Part shown: piece by piece, positions 3,101 through 19,536 of the stretch
Layout of the letters: the number at the start of each line of letters is the position of its first letter
How positions within the stretch are numbered: the first letter of the stretch is position 1
IMG/VR virus record: IMGVR_UViG_3300050821_003619
Coordinates: 45,251-109,250 of that record
DNA: 64,000 nucleotides
Source of the DNA: a virus
Reading direction: 5' to 3' (one strand)
Position numbers and translations under genes: made by a program
The notes under the pieces: generated by a model
What the model was told of the DNA's origin: nothing
The model's input: only the letters and a program-made list of their open reading frames with translations
Database searches by the model: none

Positions 3101-3442
3101 ATGAAAGCTTTGTTCACCACATTTGTACTTGCCCTCGCACTGCTGGCCTCGGCTCACACAGCCACGGCTAATGATGACGAGAACGTGTATGTTAACGGAC
3201 AGTATCTCAGTAGCGACGGAGACAACTACGGAATGACCTTCTCCGTAAGCAGTTCTGTTCCTGAGCCTACATGCGTGTTTCCATATGTCACCAGCAGTGA
3301 CAATGTGGTGGGCGGGGTTGGTAGCCCTTACCAACTCGGAGCTAATGAGCAGAACGTGCACATTGGTCAGTTTAACCGAGCCGATAGCTCTCGTGGCTGG
3401 TCGGTTCAAGTGAGTGCACGTTGGCATCGTGGAGGCTGCTAG
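3101..3442 (+). CDS. Small secreted protein of unknown function
   Basis: The protein has 113 residues with a clear Sec signal peptide: MKALF, then a hydrophobic core to about residue 20, and a likely signal peptidase cut after HTATA. The mature part (about 90 residues) is Ser/Val/Gly-rich, probably beta, with two Cys that could form a disulfide. The ribosome site AAGGAGAATACATG recurs before other genes of this phage. It is one of at least nine secreted proteins in the window. Confidence 0.65.
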   Translation: MKALFTTFVLALALLASAHTATANDDENVYVNGQYLSSDGDNYGMTFSVSSSVPEPTCVFPYVTSSDNVVGGVGSPYQLGANEQNVHIGQFNRADSSRGWSVQVSARWHRGGC

Positions 3443-3606
3443 TGCTCAAGTGGATTCGTAGTTTAGGATTCTGGGGCATGTTCGTTGGGGCAATGGGAGC
3501 GCTGAATGCTCTCATTCAGAATGACTGGGGGATCGTAGGGTTAGGTATTGTTTTCGTTTTGTTGTCCTACGGTTGGTACTGGTTATTCGGCAAGTTCACC
3601 ACGTAA
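3442..3606 (+). CDS. Small two-pass membrane protein
   Basis: The protein has 54 residues (MLKWIRSLGFWGMF...LFGKFTT) starting at GTG, chosen because GGAGG at 3431-3435 is six bases upstream. The GTG shares a base with the preceding stop. Two hydrophobic segments (about 8-22 and 29-48) are separated by a short polar turn. No family is recognised. The 3' end abuts the acceptor half of the tmRNA gene. Confidence 0.6.
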   Translation: MLKWIRSLGFWGMFVGAMGALNALIQNDWGIVGLGIVFVLLSYGWYWLFGKFTT

Positions 3607-3673
3607 AGTTACGCACGTATGAGGTAATCGCAAAGCCTATCGGACACGGGTTCGACTCCCGTCGCCTCCACCA

Positions 3674-3795
3674 AGCTACTCACGATGAATACCGGCTGAC
3701 CCCAGCGTCTAGCGCGGAATCACGGCTAGGCCCGAGACGAATGCATCGTTATCGGGAAAGTCGAGGATAATTCTCGTCTGGGTGAGTAGCTTAAT
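3674..3795 (+). other. Intervening segment of the permuted tmRNA precursor
   Basis: These 122 bases lie between the mature 3' CCA and the mature 5' G. The ends form a perfect ten-pair stem (AGCTACTCAC at 3674-3683 with GTGAGTAGCT at 3782-3791) that stacks below the acceptor stem, separated by ACCA/TTAAT-like unpaired bases. Inside, CCCGA..TCGGG with ACGA..TCGT, and CGAG..CTCG around GATAATT, can form further hairpins. It is expected to be cut out by RNase P on the 5' side and by 3' tRNA-processing nucleases. Confidence 0.8.
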
Positions 3796-3888
3796 GGGGG
3801 CGTCACGGCTTCGACGGTGGGAACTGAGGGATTTACTGACGTGCCGTTATCGTACGCCGTTCGTTATACGGAGTGCAAAAACACAAAT

Positions 3889-3969
3889 GCTAAGACTAAC
3901 AAGTCTCGCAAGGCCTATGGCATGTTCTTCGGTGGAAACACTGTTGGACAGCTTTCTGTAGCTGCCTAA
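3889..3969 (+). other. tmRNA-encoded proteolysis tag frame
   Basis: Reading from GCT at 3889, 26 codons give AKTNKSRKAY, GMFFGGNTVG and QLSVAA before TAA. The resume codon is inferred. GCT lies 12 bases after the GGAGTGC end of a hairpin region, behind A-rich AAAAACACAAAT, much like the 11-base spacer before GCA in E. coli tmRNA. Termination in VAA matches ClpXP-type degrons. The tag is longer than the usual 8-15 residues. The alternative frame from GCA at 3875 ends in DSFL and is less credible. Confidence 0.65.
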
Positions 3970-4029
3970 AAGGGTGGGAGCCTCACAAGGGCTCCCTTCC
4001 GATATCCTCCCCAACAAACAGGAGAAACC

Positions 4030-4488
4030 ATGAAGAAGCTTTTCGCTGCTGTACTGATGCTGGCGTCAGCATTTGCTGCTGCCCAAACCACAAACAATTT
4101 TACTTTTGGTCCGCGCCCTACCATCACTAACATTGCTCCGATGACTTCGGTTAACGGTGTTTCAGTCGATCCTGCTACCAATAGCACTGTAGATTTTCAG
4201 ACTTCGGACTTCAGCACTGCTCCGGGGTTCGCGTTGTATTTCCCTTACAGCATCGACGGTACCAGTGGTATTCTTGAAGGAGGAACGATTCAGTATGGTG
4301 TACGCGTTATTACCGGCGTGAACACTGCTACTCAGTCTGATACGTTCTCTTTCTTCGGTGGAGAATTTACCGGCACTGTAATTGAAACCTTCACCTTCGC
4401 TACGCAGCGTGTGTGCGGTGGTCGTAGTTGCCACAACGTGACGGTGTATACCAGCACGGGTGGAACGGGAACGTTGACAAAGAACTAA
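4030..4488 (+). CDS. Secreted beta-rich protein of unknown function
   Basis: The protein has 152 residues with a strong signal peptide (MKKLFAAVLMLASAFAAAQ, cut after FAAA). The mature chain is rich in Thr, Ser, Gly and Phe with alternating pattern, so probably a beta sandwich, with one CGGRSC Cys pair near residue 130. The ribosome site ACAGGAGAAACC precedes the ATG. The PSORT-type signal suggests periplasm or outside. I recognise no family. Confidence 0.65.
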   Translation: MKKLFAAVLMLASAFAAAQTTNNFTFGPRPTITNIAPMTSVNGVSVDPATNSTVDFQTSDFSTAPGFALYFPYSIDGTSGILEGGTIQYGVRVITGVNTATQSDTFSFFGGEFTGTVIETFTFATQRVCGGRSCHNVTVYTSTGGTGTLTKN

Positions 4489-12512: not shown

Positions 12513-12870
12513 CGAAATTGACCGTATTGCAGCCTTATCTGTGATTGTAGGTATAGGCGCAGCGTTCTCAGCAGCACTGTATTACACATTGAAACCACCA
12601 ACACAACCAACACAAAGGACACAAGACGTGGATAAGAATCTGACTATTGCAACTTACATTAAGCAGTTCGTGAACGACCGTGCAACCTCAAATGAGCCTC
12701 ACTTCTTTGCCAACGCATTGCGTGAGTTCGTCTCCACCAATTCGGGCACTATTCCTGCACCCGGCACCACTGATCGTATCCTTCGTAAGCTTCGTCAGAA
12801 GGGCGAGATCGATTACGCAGTGGAAAACCGTAAGCTGTCCTATTACCTTGCTAAGCCGGTAGTGAAGTGA
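12505..12870 (+). CDS. Membrane-anchored protein with winged-helix-like domain
   Basis: The protein has 121 residues. A transmembrane helix at about 8-27 (ALSVIVGIGAAFSAALYYTL) is followed by a Pro/Thr/Gln linker and a folded part (TYIKQFVNDR..., TTDRILRKLRQKGEIDYAVENRKLSYYLA) with the helix and beta-wing pattern of a winged helix. A membrane-tethered DNA-binding protein beside the replicative helicase could attach phage DNA to the membrane; that is inference. The start overlaps the primase-helicase stop. Confidence 0.55.
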   Translation: MFNEIDRIAALSVIVGIGAAFSAALYYTLKPPTQPTQRTQDVDKNLTIATYIKQFVNDRATSNEPHFFANALREFVSTNSGTIPAPGTTDRILRKLRQKGEIDYAVENRKLSYYLAKPVVK

Positions 12871-13349
12871 TTTATATCGGCATTGATCCCGGTTTATCGG
12901 GAGCCGTTGCGATTATTGACGGCACAGATGTAAAGCTGTTTGATACACCCACGGCTGAAACTGGAAAAGGCAGCAAGAGAGACTATCTGATTGCCAATAT
13001 GTCTGACATCCTAAGGACTACTCAGCCCTTTTACATGTTTGCCGTATTAGAGGCTGTGCACTCCATGCCTAAACAAGGGGTAGCTTCTAGTTTTAGTTTT
13101 GGTCGTGGGTTGGGTATCTGGGAAGGCATCCTATCGGCGCATAGTATACCGTATGCTAAGGTAGCTCCTCAGACTTGGAAGAAAGCTATGTTAGGGGACA
13201 TGCCGAGAGACAATAAAGACTCATCTCGCATAGCAGCCACCCGGCTGTTCCCTAATGCATCAGACATGCTGGCACGTAAGAAAGATGACGGAAGAGCCGA
13301 GGCACTTTTGATGGCAGAATATGGAAAGAGACTAAGAGGAAAAGCATGA
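12867..13349 (+). CDS. RuvC-type Holliday junction resolvase
   Basis: The protein has 160 residues and starts at GTG overlapping the previous stop. IGIDPGLSGA at the N-terminus (Asp7), LEAVHSMPKQGVASSFSFGRGLG (Glu62) and KKDDGRAEALLMAEYG (Asp140/141, Glu145) reproduce the four-acid site and the GRGLG signature of phage RuvC-like resolvases. It would cut branched recombination intermediates before packaging, matching the RecA and exonuclease in the same block. Confidence 0.9.
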   Translation: MIYIGIDPGLSGAVAIIDGTDVKLFDTPTAETGKGSKRDYLIANMSDILRTTQPFYMFAVLEAVHSMPKQGVASSFSFGRGLGIWEGILSAHSIPYAKVAPQTWKKAMLGDMPRDNKDSSRIAATRLFPNASDMLARKKDDGRAEALLMAEYGKRLRGKA

Positions 13350-13510
13350 AAATTTATAAAATTGATATTAGCCACAAACAATGGGGCAACAACTGGGACT
13401 CACAAAAAATCGCGGCACGTAATTTTAATGAAGTTGTACGTAAGATTAAAAAGACACTTGGTCGCAATGAAAATATAGAGAGTGTACAGGTACTGGCCTC
13501 TACCAACTAA
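13346..13510 (+). CDS. Small hypothetical protein
   Basis: The protein has 54 residues (MKIYKIDISHKQWGNNWD..., VLASTN), starting in an ATGA overlap with the resolvase and ending in a TAATG overlap with the next gene. The ribosome site AGAGGAAAAGC is good. The NFNEVVRKIKKTLG helix between beta-like strands suggests a small alpha/beta fold. No family is recognised. Confidence 0.65.
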   Translation: MKIYKIDISHKQWGNNWDSQKIAARNFNEVVRKIKKTLGRNENIESVQVLASTN

Positions 13511-13929
13511 TGATTGATAAGTCCGAGAAGTATAAGCGCGTCTTCGAAGACGTGCGAGCCCTCTACTTAGTTGTGCGCGAGGCCCAAGAGGAACGTGGTT
13601 TACCGCTACGTAGGGCAGCGATTCGTTCCAATGGGGAAGTAGCCGCTGAAGCAATTGATTTTCTATGCGATGTAGAACTTAAAGCCAAGCGGGTGCTTCC
13701 TCCGGTAGAATTCGATATGTTACAATTAGGTCTGGAAATTACTTCCGGGTCCAAATCGGCGCTAGGCGAAGTATTCCTAAAATGCAAACTGGGAGTAAGC
13801 GGTGATTATAAAAGCCTCTATTTCCACACAAAGCAAGTGATGGATGGACAGCCGTTAAACAGCATAGAGTTCGGCAAGGTGTCTGATCCTGCACCGTCAC
13901 TGGAAGACTACGATAGGAGAACTGCGTAA
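13510..13929 (+). CDS. Hypothetical protein
   Basis: The protein has 139 residues and is mostly helical: KYKRVFEDVRALYLVVREAQEERG, then AIDFLCDVELKAKRVLPPVEFDMLQLGL, with an RSNGEV turn. It is coupled on both sides by start-stop overlaps (TAATG). The length and helical make-up do not match a family I can name; the WhiB-like Cys pattern is absent. It lies between resolvase and RecA, so a replication accessory role is possible. Confidence 0.5.
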   Translation: MIDKSEKYKRVFEDVRALYLVVREAQEERGLPLRRAAIRSNGEVAAEAIDFLCDVELKAKRVLPPVEFDMLQLGLEITSGSKSALGEVFLKCKLGVSGDYKSLYFHTKQVMDGQPLNSIEFGKVSDPAPSLEDYDRRTA

Positions 13930-14099
13930 TGAGTTATGATTTAAAAGCAACCGAGTTAGAATTTCTTCAATATTTCTATAGCGCAGCAGGAGAGTGCTTT
14001 GGTCCTGCCGACAATGAAATATACCAAGCAATAAAAGAAAATTTTAAGAAGTGGAAAGGTAAGGAATTACCTGATGGATACGCAATCGAACAGTGCTGA
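13929..14099 (+). CDS. Small hypothetical protein
   Basis: The protein has 56 residues (MSYDLKATELEFLQYF..., DGYAIEQC), starting in a TAATG overlap. Its last 26 bases overlap the next gene. It is acidic and helical. No family is recognised. Confidence 0.5.
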   Translation: MSYDLKATELEFLQYFYSAAGECFGPADNEIYQAIKENFKKWKGKELPDGYAIEQC

Positions 14100-14580
14100 G
14101 GTGCACCTTACAGCAGAGAACGTAGAAAATACCGATTTAGAGCATTTGAAAGAAGTGCCAGAGAAACCAAAGCAATTAACCAGAGCCGAAATTGGTAAAC
14201 TTCGTAGAGCATATATTACTGTGGTGCACGGCATCGTAAAAGCCTGTGGGCACAAGTTTGATCCCAAGGGTCAACCACGAATGTCAAATTGTCCATGGTG
14301 CTGGGAAGCGTATTTTATGGTGGCTGTAGATACGGCTGCTATCCACAACGATCTAATGAAGGGCGGGAAGAAGGCTCTGGAGGCAAAATTCGGCAAGACG
14401 TTCGTTAAGCAGTTTGGACAATTCCTGATTGAGCAGATGACGAAGGAAATGCATGAGAACAACAGTAGACCCACAAATAGTGATAGTGGAAGCACAGATC
14501 AACATACACACAGCGATCAATGCGATCATGGAGTTCGCGGTGAAGTACCCAGCGGAGAGACTCAGCCCATTGGAGGCTGA
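14074..14580 (+). CDS. Hypothetical protein with CxxH...CPWC site
   Basis: The protein has 168 residues. After a polar first 45 residues comes a helical folded part (AEIGKLRRAYITVVHGIVKACGHKF..., SNCPWCWEAYFMVAVDTAAIHND), whose Cys/His residues could form a zinc site. The C-terminal 35 residues are low-complexity (TDQHTHSDQCDHGVRG) and overlap the following gene by 128 bases. The start ATG lies behind AAGGAATTACC. Confidence 0.55.
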   Translation: MDTQSNSAEVHLTAENVENTDLEHLKEVPEKPKQLTRAEIGKLRRAYITVVHGIVKACGHKFDPKGQPRMSNCPWCWEAYFMVAVDTAAIHNDLMKGGKKALEAKFGKTFVKQFGQFLIEQMTKEMHENNSRPTNSDSGSTDQHTHSDQCDHGVRGEVPSGETQPIGG

Positions 14581-14758
14581 ACAACTTGAATACGCTGCAG
14601 GACGAATAAGAGAACGTATAAGCAAACACTATGCTGAGGAGAGCAATGGGAGAGATACTGGAATTCAAACGACCGGAACCGAAGATGCCTTCAAAGAAGC
14701 CTATAGACGCATCAATCCCGATAGTCTCCTCGATCACCACGGAGGAGACGGCAGATAG
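14453..14758 (+). CDS. Hypothetical protein overlapping both neighbours
   Basis: The protein has 101 residues from an ATG behind AAGGAAATGC. Residues 1-62 (VIVEAQINIHTAINAIMEF..., ERLSPLEAEQLEYAAGRIRERISKHY) look like a real helical protein. The remainder is in a region shared with the next gene and is low in pattern. Overlaps of about 128 and 113 bases on both sides are unusually long even for this gene-dense phage, so one of the three frames may be shorter than drawn. Confidence 0.45.
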   Translation: MRTTVDPQIVIVEAQINIHTAINAIMEFAVKYPAERLSPLEAEQLEYAAGRIRERISKHYAEESNGRDTGIQTTGTEDAFKEAYRRINPDSLLDHHGGDGR

Positions 14759-14990
14759 TCTTCCACGTAAAGTACTAGAAGATGTGCTTGAGTTTGCCGA
14801 TGACATAGCTGATATTCTGATTATGGTCAGAGGCACGGACGGTACGTTAGGGTTCGTTACAAGCACAGATGGGTTTGAATCAAGCTTAGCTTTAATTGAA
14901 TCCGTAAAATTTGGAATGCTCTTAAACAACGCAGTTAATAGCGGGTATAACCCCGGCACGGGGGACACTCCTCCGAAAGGATCAGCTTAA
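14646..14990 (+). CDS. Hypothetical protein
   Basis: The protein has 114 residues from the ATG behind GAGGAGAGCA. It begins with MGEILEFKRPEP, a common opening of small phage proteins, and has a helical core VLEDVLEFADDIADILIMVRG, then GTLGFVTSTDGFESSLALIESVKFGM. It ends in a TAATG overlap with the secreted propeller gene. No family is recognised. Confidence 0.6.
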   Translation: MGEILEFKRPEPKMPSKKPIDASIPIVSSITTEETADSLPRKVLEDVLEFADDIADILIMVRGTDGTLGFVTSTDGFESSLALIESVKFGMLLNNAVNSGYNPGTGDTPPKGSA

Positions 14991-16387
14991 TGCTCAAAAA
15001 ACTTTTATTGTTCTTGTTCGTCGTAGCTTGTACGGTAACCGGTGTAGCCCAGATGGGAACAGGCATTTCCCAATTTGCAACGGCTGTCACCGGAGATAAC
15101 TTCGCACTATGCAGTGTATCCACGGGACGAAACTGCTTTAACCTTAGTGGTCCTGCATCTCCTGTGACCTTTACCAAGGTTGGGGCAGGTGTGGATAAAT
15201 TCGCTCTTGCTTTGGATGTGAACGGAAACATCTACAAGTTTAACGAATACCCGTCTGGAATCTGGACGGCTCTGCCTAATTTGGGAACTGGTTACAAAGG
15301 CATTGCTGTAGGAGACGCTAATCACGTCTACGTTCTAAAGAATGCCCGAGGAGCCGACTTTTACATCTACCAGCTAAACATGTCTACTGGAGCGCTGACA
15401 GCAGTCGCCGGAGGAGCAGGACAGCAGATTTCTGCCAAGGGCTCAACCGTAACAACCGCCATTAGCAACGGGGACGCTTTTGTAAGTCAAAACGGGGGAG
15501 AGTGGACTCTACTCCCGTGTGTCGGATGTTGGCGGTATGTTTCTCCGGCTTCTATTGGATACAGTGATTTTGTAGGTGCTAAAACCGATGAAAGTCTTTG
15601 GTACTACAACGGGAGCACTTTGAAACAAATTACTCCCGGTGGAGGATTGGCTATAGAAATGTCGCTCGAAGGCGATATCTATGTCATTGGCGGGGATAAT
15701 CCTGATCACATCTATCACTTGATCCTGTACAACTTCCTTAGCGGGAAAATAGCATGGGATGAGCTTGGTGGTGGACCTATGAGTGCCATCGCTACTGGCG
15801 GTACGATGTTCAACTGGTTCATTGGACCCCCGGTGAACGGATACACTATCTATCGCTTCGCAGACCAAGCTATCGGTGGACAAACAACTTTAACCGAAAA
15901 TTCTGTACAATGCTCTGGTCCCGGCTGTCCGGCGACTCACGTAGGAAAAACTTCGGCAGGACTGAACTTGTCTTCTAGTAATACTCCCAGTCCCAATACG
16001 GTTCCCGGCTCTCTTACTCAATGGACCGGTAATCCTACCAATCCGTTCAACATTAAATCGATTGCATGGGATAGTAACCCTTTCGATTGTTTAGATGATT
16101 TTGGTTGCAACATGATTTTCGACAATTCCACAGTGAACTGCAGCGTGCTTGGAAACATCGACAATCAGACTCTGGCAGATGGTGGACCATTGCCCTTGTG
16201 CCCTCCAGACAATCAATGCTGTTCTCTGGCGGACCCCGGCAACAAGAGCCTGCATCAATGCAGTGCGTTTTGTCCGCAGTATTGTCCTCCTCCACCACCA
16301 AAGCCGCCTGTTCCACCAACTCCTCCGAAGCCGAAGCCTACACCGCTTCCTCTTCCGTATCCTTGTAAGATTCATTGCCGCAAGTAA
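14990..16387 (+). CDS. Secreted tectonin-like beta-propeller protein with Cys/Pro-rich tail
   Basis: The protein has 465 residues. A Sec signal peptide (MLKKLLLFLFVVACTVTGVA) precedes about 300 residues of repeated DxNGNIYKFNEY..., VGDANHVYVLKN, KTDESLWYYNGSTLKQI and LEGDIYVIGG segments. These are the Asp/Asn-Gly-x-hydrophobic-Tyr/Trp blades typical of tectonin-type beta-propellers. The last 90 residues hold about 14 Cys, a DGGPLPLCPPDNQCCSL motif also found in the leftward gene at 22028, and a Pro/Lys spacer ending in PCKIHCRK. A secreted lectin-like propeller is unusual for a phage; binding of host or competitor surface glycans is plausible but inferred. A hairpin follows the stop. Confidence 0.7.
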   Translation: MLKKLLLFLFVVACTVTGVAQMGTGISQFATAVTGDNFALCSVSTGRNCFNLSGPASPVTFTKVGAGVDKFALALDVNGNIYKFNEYPSGIWTALPNLGTGYKGIAVGDANHVYVLKNARGADFYIYQLNMSTGALTAVAGGAGQQISAKGSTVTTAISNGDAFVSQNGGEWTLLPCVGCWRYVSPASIGYSDFVGAKTDESLWYYNGSTLKQITPGGGLAIEMSLEGDIYVIGGDNPDHIYHLILYNFLSGKIAWDELGGGPMSAIATGGTMFNWFIGPPVNGYTIYRFADQAIGGQTTLTENSVQCSGPGCPATHVGKTSAGLNLSSSNTPSPNTVPGSLTQWTGNPTNPFNIKSIAWDSNPFDCLDDFGCNMIFDNSTVNCSVLGNIDNQTLADGGPLPLCPPDNQCCSLADPGNKSLHQCSAFCPQYCPPPPPKPPVPPTPPKPKPTPLPLPYPCKIHCRK

Positions 16388-16395
16388 CCTAATGG

Positions 16396-16413
16396 GGAGC
16401 CCTACGGGGCTCC
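16396..16413 (+). terminator. Hairpin between the secreted propeller gene and recA
   Basis: GGAGCCC and GGGCTCC pair around TACG with a seven-pair stem. No T-run follows (TCTAACTT), so it may be a weak terminator or an RNA-stabilising hairpin. It resembles the GGGAGCC/GGCTCCC hairpin that ends the tmRNA. Confidence 0.5.
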
Positions 16414-16434
16414 TCTAACTTAGAAAGGCATAGA

Positions 16435-17526
16435 TTGGCTTTTGGTAAAAAGAAAGAAAAAGAAGAGATTAAGAAAGAAAAAGTTGAAGCGCCCACAACT
16501 GAAGTAGAAAAGTTTAAGCGTCTCTTCGCCCTGTCTACCCAATTGGACAAGGACTTCAACACAGAAAATACATTGCAACGTATGGACAGCAAGGTTATAG
16601 TTGCTGTACCTAGCATTGCTACAGGTCTTCCAACTTTTGACTATACTGTAATGCAAAGTGGTGGCATTCCTCGTGGTCGAATCATAGAAATATTCGGCCC
16701 AGAATCCGCTGGCAAAACCAGTATCACTTTGCACATTATTGCCGAAGAGCAGCGTAACGGAGGCATAGCAGCCTTCGTTGACGCCGAGCACGCCCTTGAT
16801 CCGTCCTATGCCCGAAAGCTAGGGGTCAATGTCGATAAGCTGCTGATCAGTCAGCCCAGCTACGGCGAGCAGGCTCTAACCATTGTGGAGAGGCTGATTG
16901 AGTCTAAAGCCGTCAGCATAATCGTGGTGGATTCTGCCGCTGCTCTTACACCCAAGGCCGAATTAGAAGGAGAGATGGGAGATAACCATGTAGGGCTGCA
17001 ATCCCGTATGATGTCTCAGGCTATGCGTAAGCTGGCCGGTATCGCCTTCGACAACAAGGTCACAGTAATATTCATTAACCAGATACGCGAGAAGATTGGC
17101 ACCATGTACGGCAATCCAGAGACTACGCCCGGTGGACGTGCTCTAAAGCACTATGCCAGCGTGCGTATCGATGTGCGTCGTAGAGAAGCCATCACTTTGT
17201 CTGGTAGCAAGGAAGACAAAAACATCCTTGGGCACGGTATTAAATTGAAAGCCGTGAAGAACAAAGTGGGTGTACCTTTCCGTGAAACAGAAGTAAAGCT
17301 GTTCTATGAGGATGGGTTTGACAAGATCGACAACTTGATTGAGTTTGCTTCTGACCTAAATCTGTTTGAGAGAGCAGGAGCATGGTACACATATGAGGAG
17401 CAGAGATTTCAGGGCTTAGCCGCTTTGAAAGAAGCTCTGAGTAATGACCCAAAGATCGTTGCATCTATTCAAAATAAAGTTAAAAAGATTGTAGATGCTC
17501 AGGTAGTGGTACCCACAGGAGTATAA
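16435..17526 (+). CDS. recA: RecA recombinase (bacterial type)
   Basis: The protein has 363 residues and starts at TTG after AGAAAGGCATAGA. The core holds GRIIEIFGPESAGKTSI (Walker A 88-96), FVDAEHALDP, IIVVDSAAALTPKAELEGEMGDNHVGLQ (Walker B and L1), FINQIREKIGTMYGNPETTPGGRALKHYASVR (L2) and VKNKVGVPFRE. This is the bacterial RecA layout, not the UvsX type. An unusual N-terminal 20-residue Lys/Glu-rich extension precedes it. The C-terminus lacks the usual acidic tail and ends VVVPTGV. It catalyses strand exchange for phage recombination-dependent replication or repair. Confidence 0.95.
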   Translation: MAFGKKKEKEEIKKEKVEAPTTEVEKFKRLFALSTQLDKDFNTENTLQRMDSKVIVAVPSIATGLPTFDYTVMQSGGIPRGRIIEIFGPESAGKTSITLHIIAEEQRNGGIAAFVDAEHALDPSYARKLGVNVDKLLISQPSYGEQALTIVERLIESKAVSIIVVDSAAALTPKAELEGEMGDNHVGLQSRMMSQAMRKLAGIAFDNKVTVIFINQIREKIGTMYGNPETTPGGRALKHYASVRIDVRRREAITLSGSKEDKNILGHGIKLKAVKNKVGVPFRETEVKLFYEDGFDKIDNLIEFASDLNLFERAGAWYTYEEQRFQGLAALKEALSNDPKIVASIQNKVKKIVDAQVVVPTGV

Positions 17527-18047
17527 TGAAGAAGAAGCTCTGGATACAAACCTATTCGGGGCTGAGGTTTGATTATAGCAACATCAAGGGCAATAGAATC
17601 GTTATAGAGGATATTGCCCACTCTTTATCAAACATCGCCCGATTCACAGGCCACACAGATTTCTACTCAGTGGCTCAGCACTCGATATACGTATCACAAA
17701 ACGTTCCACCAGAGGATGCTCTTTGGGGCCTGCTGCACGATGCTTCAGAAGCGTACGCCGGGGATGTCAATAAACCGCTAAAGAATAAGCTGGGGGACAG
17801 CTATAGGGATATAGAAGGTAAGATTCACCGATTAGTAGCCAAGACCTTTAAACTTAAGGGCAGCATACCTATGTCAGTTCATCTTGCTGACCTTAGGCTG
17901 CTGCTTACAGAGAAAAGAGACCTGTTTCGAGATCAGATACCGTGGGATGGATATGTAGGACTAGAGCCGTTCGCATTCAAGATTAAACCGTGGTCTCCAA
18001 AAGTGGCAAAGAAGAAATTCTTAGAAAAATTCAAATACCTGTACTAG
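17526..18047 (+). CDS. HD-domain phosphohydrolase
   Basis: The protein has 173 residues overlapping the recA stop (TAATG). The conserved FTGHTDFYSVAQHSIYVS (first His near 52), LLHDASEAYAGDV (HD at 71-72) and HLADLRLLLTE follow the HD/YfbR-like pattern common in phages. Such proteins remove phosphate from deoxynucleoside monophosphates or related nucleotides and are thought to tune nucleotide pools. Its place next to recA and among replication genes agrees with that. Confidence 0.82.
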   Translation: MKKKLWIQTYSGLRFDYSNIKGNRIVIEDIAHSLSNIARFTGHTDFYSVAQHSIYVSQNVPPEDALWGLLHDASEAYAGDVNKPLKNKLGDSYRDIEGKIHRLVAKTFKLKGSIPMSVHLADLRLLLTEKRDLFRDQIPWDGYVGLEPFAFKIKPWSPKVAKKKFLEKFKYLY

Positions 18048-18056
18048 GAGAAAGTA

Positions 18057-18329
18057 ATGTATGCCGGACAATTCGAACCAGAGTGGGAAGAGCAATACAA
18101 CTCAGCAGAGCCAATTGACGCACTCAAATACCTTTTCTACCTCATCACAAGGAAAGCGGAAGAGAAAGCGCAACCGAGGAAAAAGAAATCCGGCACTGGC
18201 ACCAAAAAAGTTTCAAGCTCCAGTAAAAGAGTACGTAAGCAAGTGCTGCTCAGTAGCAGCGAAGAAACCGAGAACAGGAACTTCGACTGGAACGCGCTCC
18301 GAAGGATCAGGAAAGAAAGTAACTATTGA
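18057..18329 (+). CDS. Upstream frame of a possibly frameshifted zinc-ribbon gene
   Basis: The frame has 90 residues from the ATG nine bases after AGGAGAAAG. Residues 1-46 (MYAGQFEPEWEEQYNSAEP, IDALKYLFYLITRKAEEKAQ) look like a genuine protein start. After about codon 46 the chain turns into Ser/Lys/Arg low-complexity, while the +1 frame (18061-18447) turns protein-like and ends in a zinc ribbon. The simplest reading is one protein switching from this frame to the other near the A-runs at 18176-18190 or 18204-18210. Confidence 0.5.
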   Translation: MYAGQFEPEWEEQYNSAEPIDALKYLFYLITRKAEEKAQPRKKKSGTGTKKVSSSSKRVRKQVLLSSSEETENRNFDWNALRRIRKESNY

Positions 18330-18447
18330 CCCTACGCAAGTGAAAGGTCTTAGTGGCTGGCGTTGTGGTGCTTGCGGGAAAGCGTGTAAGGTGACGCCTC
18401 AGGCTCCAAAGCCAAAGGAGGATGCACCGGTTGAAACACACGTTTAG
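18061..18447 (+). CDS. Downstream frame of the same locus: C-terminal zinc ribbon
   Basis: The frame has 128 residues. The first half is Ser/Thr/Gln/Asn and Lys/Arg low-complexity as expected for an untranslated frame. The second half contains VKEYVSKCCSVAAK..., LSGWRCGACGKACKV, which is a CC...CxxC...C zinc ribbon common in small phage proteins. An independent ATG four bases after the other frame's ATG exists, so two overlapping proteins cannot be excluded. Its stop lies within the ribosome-site region of the next gene. Confidence 0.55.
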   Translation: MPDNSNQSGKSNTTQQSQLTHSNTFSTSSQGKRKRKRNRGKRNPALAPKKFQAPVKEYVSKCCSVAAKKPRTGTSTGTRSEGSGKKVTIDPTQVKGLSGWRCGACGKACKVTPQAPKPKEDAPVETHV

Positions 18448-18589
18448 GGGCTACATACTGTTTGTTTTTGGTTACATTTTCTTAGCCATTGCACATCGGT
18501 CCCCCAAACCGGAGTTATTTGCCGTTGCCATGTTTCTCTTTATTGTCGCTCTGGTTATGTTTGTTTACAGCATAGTGAGGAATCAATGA
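18431..18589 (+). CDS. Small two-pass membrane protein
   Basis: The protein has 52 residues and starts at TTG, with AAGGAGG nine bases upstream, which decides the start. Two hydrophobic helices are GYILFVFGYIFLAIAH and LFAVAMFLFIVALVMFVY, joined by RSPKPE. It overlaps the next start (ATGA). It could be a holin-like or antiholin-like protein because the following genes include lysis candidates; this is inference. Confidence 0.6.
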   Translation: MKHTFRGYILFVFGYIFLAIAHRSPKPELFAVAMFLFIVALVMFVYSIVRNQ

Positions 18590-18996
18590 AAAAGTTTTTA
18601 TTGCTAACCGTGCTTCTGTTAACGGGACTTACGGAGGCTGCTATACCGAAGCACGGTTCGAATTCATTGGGGGTAGTGATATCACAAGAGAACCCGTTTA
18701 CCTACCGTGCAGGATCAGTCATAACCGTATTTGATGTAGAAGAAGGTAAAGGGTACGTCATACGTATTCAGCCTTACAAAACCTATCTGTCATTCTTTGA
18801 AGACATTTTGGTTTGTGGGGAACATATTGATGCTGGTGGGCAGATCAGTGACGCCATAGATATGTTCGATCAGAAGCAGAACCCTCTTATGCTGGTGTAC
18901 CGTATCCGAGCATCACGCACCGTTGAAGGTGTAGGTTGCCACGAGTTGGTTGGGGTCAACGAGATTAAGGTTAAAAAGGACGACAAATGGAAGTAA
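18586..18996 (+). CDS. Secreted hypothetical protein
   Basis: The protein has 136 residues with a signal peptide (MKKFLLLTVLLLTGLTEAA, cut after TEA). The mature part is beta-like (SLGVVISQENPFTYRAGSVITVFDVEEG, KGYVIRIQPYKTYLSF), with two Cys that could pair. It is coupled by overlap to genes on both sides. It lies in the lysis region, so a periplasmic role is possible. No family is recognised. Confidence 0.6.
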   Translation: MKKFLLLTVLLLTGLTEAAIPKHGSNSLGVVISQENPFTYRAGSVITVFDVEEGKGYVIRIQPYKTYLSFFEDILVCGEHIDAGGQISDAIDMFDQKQNPLMLVYRIRASRTVEGVGCHELVGVNEIKVKKDDKWK

Positions 18997-19391
18997 AGAT
19001 TAAAGTACAGAGAAGTAAACCCACAGGCAAAAGTACTCCCGGCACCATGTCTCTCAATGGAGTTTTCGAATGCTTTACCATGGAGCCTGATCCGGTTACA
19101 CCAGCTATTGCCGGTCACCCTTCAATTCCTGCCGGTGTATATCCTGTGCAGCTAACCAAATCCCCGCATTTAGGTTACATTACTCCAGAACTACTGGCTG
19201 TTCCGGGGCGCTCAGCTATTCGCATTCATATCGCAAACTACCCTACTGAGCTTGAAGGATGCACAGCGGTAGGACAATCACAGGAGCAGGATTTTGTTGG
19301 GTTCAGCAAGAACGCATTCGAGGCGTTGATGCAAAAACTAACGAGCCTGCAGGTAACCACAATTACGGCAGAGTATGTGGATGCTGAGTAA
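18987..19391 (+). CDS. DUF5675-like protein, candidate lysis factor
   Basis: The protein has 134 residues. FECFTMEPD, SIPAGVYPVQLTKSPHLG, PELLAVPGRSAIRIHIANYPTELEGCTAVG match the order of conserved blocks of the DUF5675 family: an LD-transpeptidase-like beta fold with His and Cys in HIAN...EGC. Family members are often found beside endolysins and holins and are suspected to act on peptidoglycan; the activity is not established. No signal peptide is present. Its neighbours are a small membrane protein and a GH108 endolysin. Confidence 0.72.
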   Translation: MEVKIKVQRSKPTGKSTPGTMSLNGVFECFTMEPDPVTPAIAGHPSIPAGVYPVQLTKSPHLGYITPELLAVPGRSAIRIHIANYPTELEGCTAVGQSQEQDFVGFSKNAFEALMQKLTSLQVTTITAEYVDAE

Positions 19392-19536
19392 AATAAACTA
19401 CGGAGAATGGCTAGGATGGGCTGGTGCATTTTTGTCTCTAGGGTCATCAATTGGATACGCGGTGGTTGGAGACAAACGGCGAGCGATATACTACGCTCTG
19501 GCTTTTGGAATCAGCGCTACCGTCCTGTGGAGGTAG
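19381..19536 (+). CDS. Small membrane protein in the lysis region
   Basis: The protein has 51 residues (MLSKINYGEWLGWAGAF...ISATVLWR), overlapping the DUF5675-like stop by 11 bases. Two hydrophobic helices are separated by VVGDKRR. Size, topology and position before an endolysin fit a holin or a holin regulator, but nothing in the sequence proves it. The ribosome site is weak, so translation may depend on coupling. Confidence 0.55.
   Translation: MLSKINYGEWLGWAGAFLSLGSSIGYAVVGDKRRAIYYALAFGISATVLWR

Follow-up and report, generated by a model that had tools for sequence, protein, structure and literature searches.

A circularly permuted tmRNA gene in a phage of likely Acidobacteriota hosts and its probable part in host-assisted ribosome rescue

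Results and Discussion

Anatomy of the locus

The window analysed here is a stretch of 64,000 nucleotides, positions 45,251-109,250 of a 109,250-bp IMG/VR virus record. A 25-bp direct repeat is common to both ends of the record, which may therefore be complete, and phage genes for DNA polymerase A, terminase, a primase-helicase and a tail fibre are present on the contig. Between two open reading frames without Pfam match (3421-3606 and 4030-4488) lies a tmRNA gene in two pieces on the plus strand, the tRNA-like 3' piece being the first. This acceptor piece extends over 3607-3673, with a putative 5' end (the match to the permuted tmRNA model starts at 3613), and is formed in order by the 3' strand of P2, the T arm, the acceptor strand CGCCUCC (3663-3669), A3670 and CCA (3671-3673). 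The T arm shows a stem ACGGG/CCCGT with the loop TTCGACT, and is followed by CGCCTCC-ACCA. A segment of 122 nt (3674-3795), presumed to be excised, separates the CCA end from G1 of the acceptor stem. Its fold energy is -50.8 kcal/mol, and it is closed beside the acceptor stem by a clamp helix in which AGCTACTCAC (3674-3683, plus strand) forms ten perfect pairs with GTGAGTAGCT (3782-3791, plus strand).

The coding (5') piece starts with the acceptor strand GGGGGCG (3796-3802), which pairs with 3663-3669. The acceptor stem so formed has seven pairs including G3-U70 (G3798-U3667), with A3670 as discriminator and an encoded CCA. A D-loop-like segment, TCACGGCTTCGAC (3803-3815), follows; it fits the consensus of the permuted tmRNA model RF04321 and its (T)TCGA motif is kept in homologues. 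The 5' strand of P2 (3815-3844) is predicted by cofolding to pair with 3613-3642. The tag frame AKTNKSRKAYGMFFGGNTVGQLSVAA occupies 3889-3969 with 26 codons, from the resume codon GCU (3889-3891) to the stop codon UAA (3967-3969); its AAAUGC resume context agrees with RF04321, and the reading was confirmed by ARAGORN and by direct translation. Downstream of the stop codon, direct reading and folding reveal a terminal hairpin, GGGAGCC-TCACAAG-GGCTCCC (3976-3996), which possibly ends the coding piece as a terminator. Similar hairpins are found 3' of the stop codon in several homologues.

Identification as a permuted tmRNA

The Rfam model RF04321 (tmRNA_permuted) matches positions 3613-3969 of the plus strand over its complete length (model positions 1-213) with 92.8 bits and an E-value of 1.2e-16, the gathering score being 47 bits, and this is the sole Rfam match in the window. 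ARAGORN independently calls one permuted tmRNA with the tag AKTNKSRKAYGMFFGGNTVGQLSVAA*. An earlier note, prepared from the letters of the DNA, had read the locus as a phage-encoded permuted tmRNA with the tRNA-like 3' half upstream of the 5' half. Both points are borne out, the first by RF04321, ARAGORN and the covariation across homologues described below, and the second by the acceptor stem, which joins both halves. The seven-pair acceptor stem with G3-U70 proposed in the same note was found as described (3796-3802 with 3663-3669). A P2 helix is also predicted in the zone where it had been placed (3830-3844 with 3613-3629); the 13 pairs assigned to it become 12, with bulges. The note had further suggested a search with Rfam tmRNA models, and the outcome depends on the model: the permuted one clearly exceeds its cut-off, whereas alpha_tmRNA, beta_tmRNA and cyano_tmRNA (RF01849-RF01851) give no match over their own cut-offs in the window. 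The alpha cut-off is reached by a few relatives (L044, L243 and L257). With RF00023 only two halves in reversed order are obtained at the locus (3400-3673 and 3796-4200), each below the cut-off. Viral contigs with permuted tmRNAs of the proteobacterial type score higher (147 bits) than the present locus (92.8 bits). That the phage carries a genuine circularly permuted tmRNA (ssrA) gene is confirmed.

Compensatory changes in the joining helices

Twenty-three distinct phage homologues were aligned as motif-anchored pieces with a 4-base linker replacing P2, leaving out L258 (mis-registered), L260 (no convincing 3' piece), L257, L261 and duplicates. All seven acceptor pairs are formed in 100% of the cells of this alignment, in which G3-U70 and CCA are invariant. 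Changes on both sides of the helix occur at acceptor pairs 4, 5 and 6 in 12, 10 and 12 of the 23 sequences, respectively, and the observed covariation score was reached by none of 500 shuffles. In an independent test, T-loop and D-loop motifs alone served to place the pieces of 30 phage tmRNAs. The 14 distinct acceptor combinations obtained give 56 cases at positions 4-7, of which 52 are paired compared with 33.7 expected after partner shuffling, and 0 of 20,000 partner shuffles matched or beat the observed value. Because the joining helix covaries across the 23 phage homologues, it is neither a product of chance nor an artefact of a tRNA next to a standard tmRNA.

Most homologues whose intervening segment is long possess a clamp; its sequence differs between them and its complementarity is kept, with a mean duplex energy of -13.2 kcal/mol versus -5.5 kcal/mol for shuffled partners. 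The fold energy of P2 and the joined pieces is unexceptional (19 of 300 shuffles were equally stable) and constitutes weak evidence when taken alone.

Distribution among phages and form of the host gene

Comparison of DNA polymerases identifies Tunturi_4 (43% identity) and Tunturi_3 (41%) as the closest isolates, every other isolate being far lower. Both were isolated on Tunturiibacter (Acidobacteriota), and the host of the present phage is therefore likely to be a soil member of the Acidobacteriota. Bacterial genomes searched for homologues of the polymerase as a host linkage gave none, and DNA similarity to phage records yielded no match for the tmRNA locus or for 25 kb of the window.

RF04321 exceeds its cut-off in 21 of the 30 viral contigs that encode a related DNA polymerase. 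Tunturi_4 and Tunturi_3 carry permuted tmRNAs (79.2 and 63.3 bits with RF04321) that are unannotated in their records, and another one (86.4 bits) was found in the jumbo myophage Tunturi_5, which according to its describers is unrelated to the other Tunturi phages (PMC11924767). A search of that paper found no mention of tmRNA (PMC11924767). The occurrence in 21 of 30 relatives and in Tunturi_3, Tunturi_4 and Tunturi_5 indicates that the gene is maintained. These three phages (PP885686, PP885687 and PP885688) resemble ours in the permuted gene, the G3-U70 pair and the lack of SmpB, and Tunturi_4 and Tunturi_5 also in the long tag; unlike ours, they have no RNase P RNA. SmpB is absent from the whole 109-kb record and from 29 other phages, so that the earlier remark on the missing SmpB, made for the DNA then in view, extends to all of them.

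Tunturi_3 and Tunturi_4 differ from our phage in a GGQ release-factor-like protein, possibly a second ribosome-rescue factor. In Tunturi_4 the gene (L292, 43946-44293, minus strand) immediately precedes the tmRNA, its end lying 4 bases ahead of the model match, and the Tunturi_3 homologue is located about 5 kb from the tmRNA. A phmmer search for an ArfB-like or GGQ release factor in the present phage found none.

The likely hosts have a different form of the gene. A standard one-piece tmRNA scoring 155-200 bits is present in 17 of 20 Acidobacteriota genomes, and the tag read from the Edaphobacter/Tunturiibacter and Granulicella genomes studied is AEPQFALAA. This one-piece tmRNA (RF00023) has the same expected function as the phage RNA, with standard gene order and a tag of nine residues. 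No genuine permuted gene was found in 297 Acidobacteriota genomes, where all nine RF04321 matches over the cut-off are artefacts, which leaves an origin from permuted ssrA of Acidobacteriota without support among the genomes sampled. At L282, L283 and L285-L290 a tRNA-Asp immediately precedes a standard tmRNA and causes the false match. A Granulicella metagenome-assembled genome (G054, C13:201907-202671; L278 and L284) has two standard tmRNA genes in tandem, and their junction scores as permuted. This tandem duplicate shows that the juxtaposition needed for permutation does occur in nature.

The comparison with host ssrA proposed in the earlier note thus gives a form unlike the phage gene, and the idea considered in the note, that the gene was taken from a host lineage whose ssrA is permuted, finds no support for the likely current host. 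Since the Acidobacteriota form is one-piece, the phage gene is no recent copy of the ssrA of its likely host. Proteobacteria, cyanobacteria or a permutation arising in phages are candidate origins.

Relation to known two-piece tmRNAs

The note had also regarded a copy within a phage as unusual. This view needs qualifying, as in data from 2021 ARAGORN called 53 of 133 phage tmRNA structures two-piece, most of them from marine or aquatic settings (PMC9004378). Marine phages, Methylophilales phage Melnitz among them, have, as here, a complete permuted ssrA in a tailed phage that differs from that of the host, and the proposal made for them, rescue of ribosomes or targeted tagging at an early stage of infection, is shared by our phage (PMC9004378). 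Melnitz is marine, its host lineage itself has a permuted tmRNA, and a glutamine riboswitch lies near its gene (PMC9004378); our phage belongs instead to a group of Acidobacteriota phages with probable one-piece hosts; its tag is long and basic, its intervening segment long and clamped, and its genome includes an RNase P RNA. With the alpha, beta and cyano two-piece tmRNAs gathered in RF04321 (PMC11915505) the present gene shares the order of the pieces, the G3-U70 acceptor, the T arm, the CCA and the tag frame. It differs from them in a tag of 26 residues, the most frequent length being 10, and in scores below the cut-offs of the lineage-specific models. The phage two-piece tmRNA is hence of a kind already known; what sets it apart is a phage group whose hosts probably have one-piece tmRNA, together with the unusual tags, the clamp on the intervening segment and the presence of an RNase P RNA in the genome.

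Proposed role in ribosome rescue

We consider it very probable that the locus is a functional phage-encoded permuted tmRNA gene engaged in host-assisted ribosome rescue, an activity that we infer from its sequence. Rescue during infection by means of the SmpB, AlaRS and proteases of the host is the likeliest role. RNase P is the enzyme expected to make a cut of the 3795/3796 type in the processing of permuted tmRNAs. A single precursor would be transcribed with the tRNA-like 3' piece first, and the CCA 3' end would adjoin the 5' end of the coding piece, both closed off by the clamped loop of 122 nt. RNase P would cleave before G3796, and other nucleases would cut the loop and trim it back to the CCA (position 3673). 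Pairing in the acceptor stem and in P2 would keep the two pieces together. The acceptor with its G3-U70 pair would be charged by the host AlaRS and delivered to stalled ribosomes by the host SmpB and EF-Tu. The lack of SmpB in the phages is consistent with this use of the host protein, whose presence we presume. Translation would resume at GCU 3889, the rescued chain gaining Ala and AKTNKSRKAYGMFFGGNTVGQLSVAA, and the tagged chain would be degraded through its -VAA end by host proteases. For the phage, the benefit may be to keep ribosomes circulating and to clear broken products during the expression of its genes, beside its large set of tRNAs.

The fate of the tag is uncertain because 26 residues are many more than the usual 10. 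The tag has a net charge of +4 and ends in -VAA; that of Tunturi_4 has 33 residues, a net charge of +3 and the end -VAA, and that of Tunturi_5 has 34 residues, +6 and -MAA, the latter being read by hand, like some others, and less secure than a tag called by ARAGORN. Two rough kinds of phage tag can be told apart, the first long, often basic and usually with an AA-type end, and the second short to medium, with several members ending in -AAAGR, -AAAGV or -AAAGA where -AA would be usual (L048, L049, L050, L248, L254, L256 and L261). As tags of the second kind have no C-terminal AA, their proteolysis may differ.

These tags are the basis of the main rival explanation, a modified or decoy tmRNA whose long basic or altered tag would redirect rescued proteins or compete with the host tmRNA, so that its main role would be to alter host quality control and not to copy the host tmRNA. 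The length and positive charge frequent in the phage group, as opposed to the host AEPQFALAA, and the relatives without terminal AA speak for it, and the tag-less tmRNA of phage DS6A has been reported to inhibit host tmRNA (PMC11915505). However, the ends -VAA in our phage and in Tunturi_4, and -MAA in Tunturi_5, resemble ordinary proteolysis signals, and both the tag frame and the alanine identity pair are intact; we judge this explanation unlikely. A functionless relic carried along by the phage would agree with the moderate bit score and the long intervening segment, but every tested element is intact, the helices are maintained by compensatory change and the gene is found in 21 of 30 relatives, which makes such a relic very improbable. 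Finally, a model artefact, in which an ordinary tmRNA immediately preceded by a tRNA or by another tmRNA scores as permuted, is a real type of error that accounts for all nine matches over cut-off in Acidobacteriota genomes, but it can be practically dismissed here. The programs find no tRNA at 3607-3673 and no 3' half of a standard tmRNA further downstream, and twenty phage homologues of the locus contain neither a full-length standard tmRNA nor a tRNA overlapping the T arm.

The difference in form between phage and host is useful. A two-piece phage tmRNA and the likely one-piece host tmRNA are distinguishable in an infected cell by size, ends and tag, and which tmRNA rescues which ribosomes is directly testable with the culturable Tunturiibacter phages carrying the gene.

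RNase P RNA and tRNA genes elsewhere in the record

Outside the window, at record positions 18,952-19,273 on the minus strand, a class A RNase P RNA (RF00010) was detected over the full model with 147.6 bits; the cut-off is 100 bits and the match includes the conserved core. It sits inside the tRNA array of the phage, between terminase and DNA polymerase, where at least 26 tRNA genes (record positions 12571-19460) all have an encoded CCA. The gene of an RNA-binding protein with a TROVE domain (Ro60-like) adjoins the array (record positions 15003-16325, minus strand). No gene for the RNase P protein was found in the phage. Another contig of this phage type (G007) likewise has the RNase P RNA, which is absent from all 30 DNA polymerase relatives and from Tunturi_1, 3, 4 and 5. 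Two very large viral contigs (G001 and G002) combine RNase P RNA in tRNA-rich regions with a permuted tmRNA. We found no report of a phage-encoded RNase P RNA in the open-access papers searched.

A link between RNase P RNA and tmRNA is plausible because RNase P is expected to cut at 3795/3796. We advance, tentatively and as something that may well prove otherwise, that Acidobacteriota phages maintain a pool of two-piece tmRNAs of their own, differing in form from the one-piece gene of the host and having a separate tag code, and that some, the present phage among them, add an RNase P RNA that would mature tRNAs and tmRNA together with the host protein, resulting in a largely self-supplied set of RNAs for rescue and for the upkeep of translation. 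If so, the enzyme that processes the tRNAs of some phages would have a phage-encoded RNA subunit.

About eleven further viral contigs (L302, L307, L311, L315, L317, L320, L323, L325, L329, L330 and L332) gave RNase P RNA beside tRNAs in a pattern scan with subsequent Rfam comparison; the list is uncurated, and cellular or prophage-flanking sequence may be among its IMG/VR contigs. Among deposited phage records with RNase P RNA by DNA similarity, Microcystis MaAM05 and Acinetobacter MD-2021a were rejected as bacterial or prophage-flanking sequence; the other matches were one Salmonella record and two unannotated faecal records. The record deposited as Microcystis phage MaAM05 (MW495066, L333) contains fabI, engB, glyS and the RNase P-like sequence in a region that looks bacterial. 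A GOLLD RNA was observed at positions 5070-5488 of L328, a viral contig of 385 kb with tRNAs.
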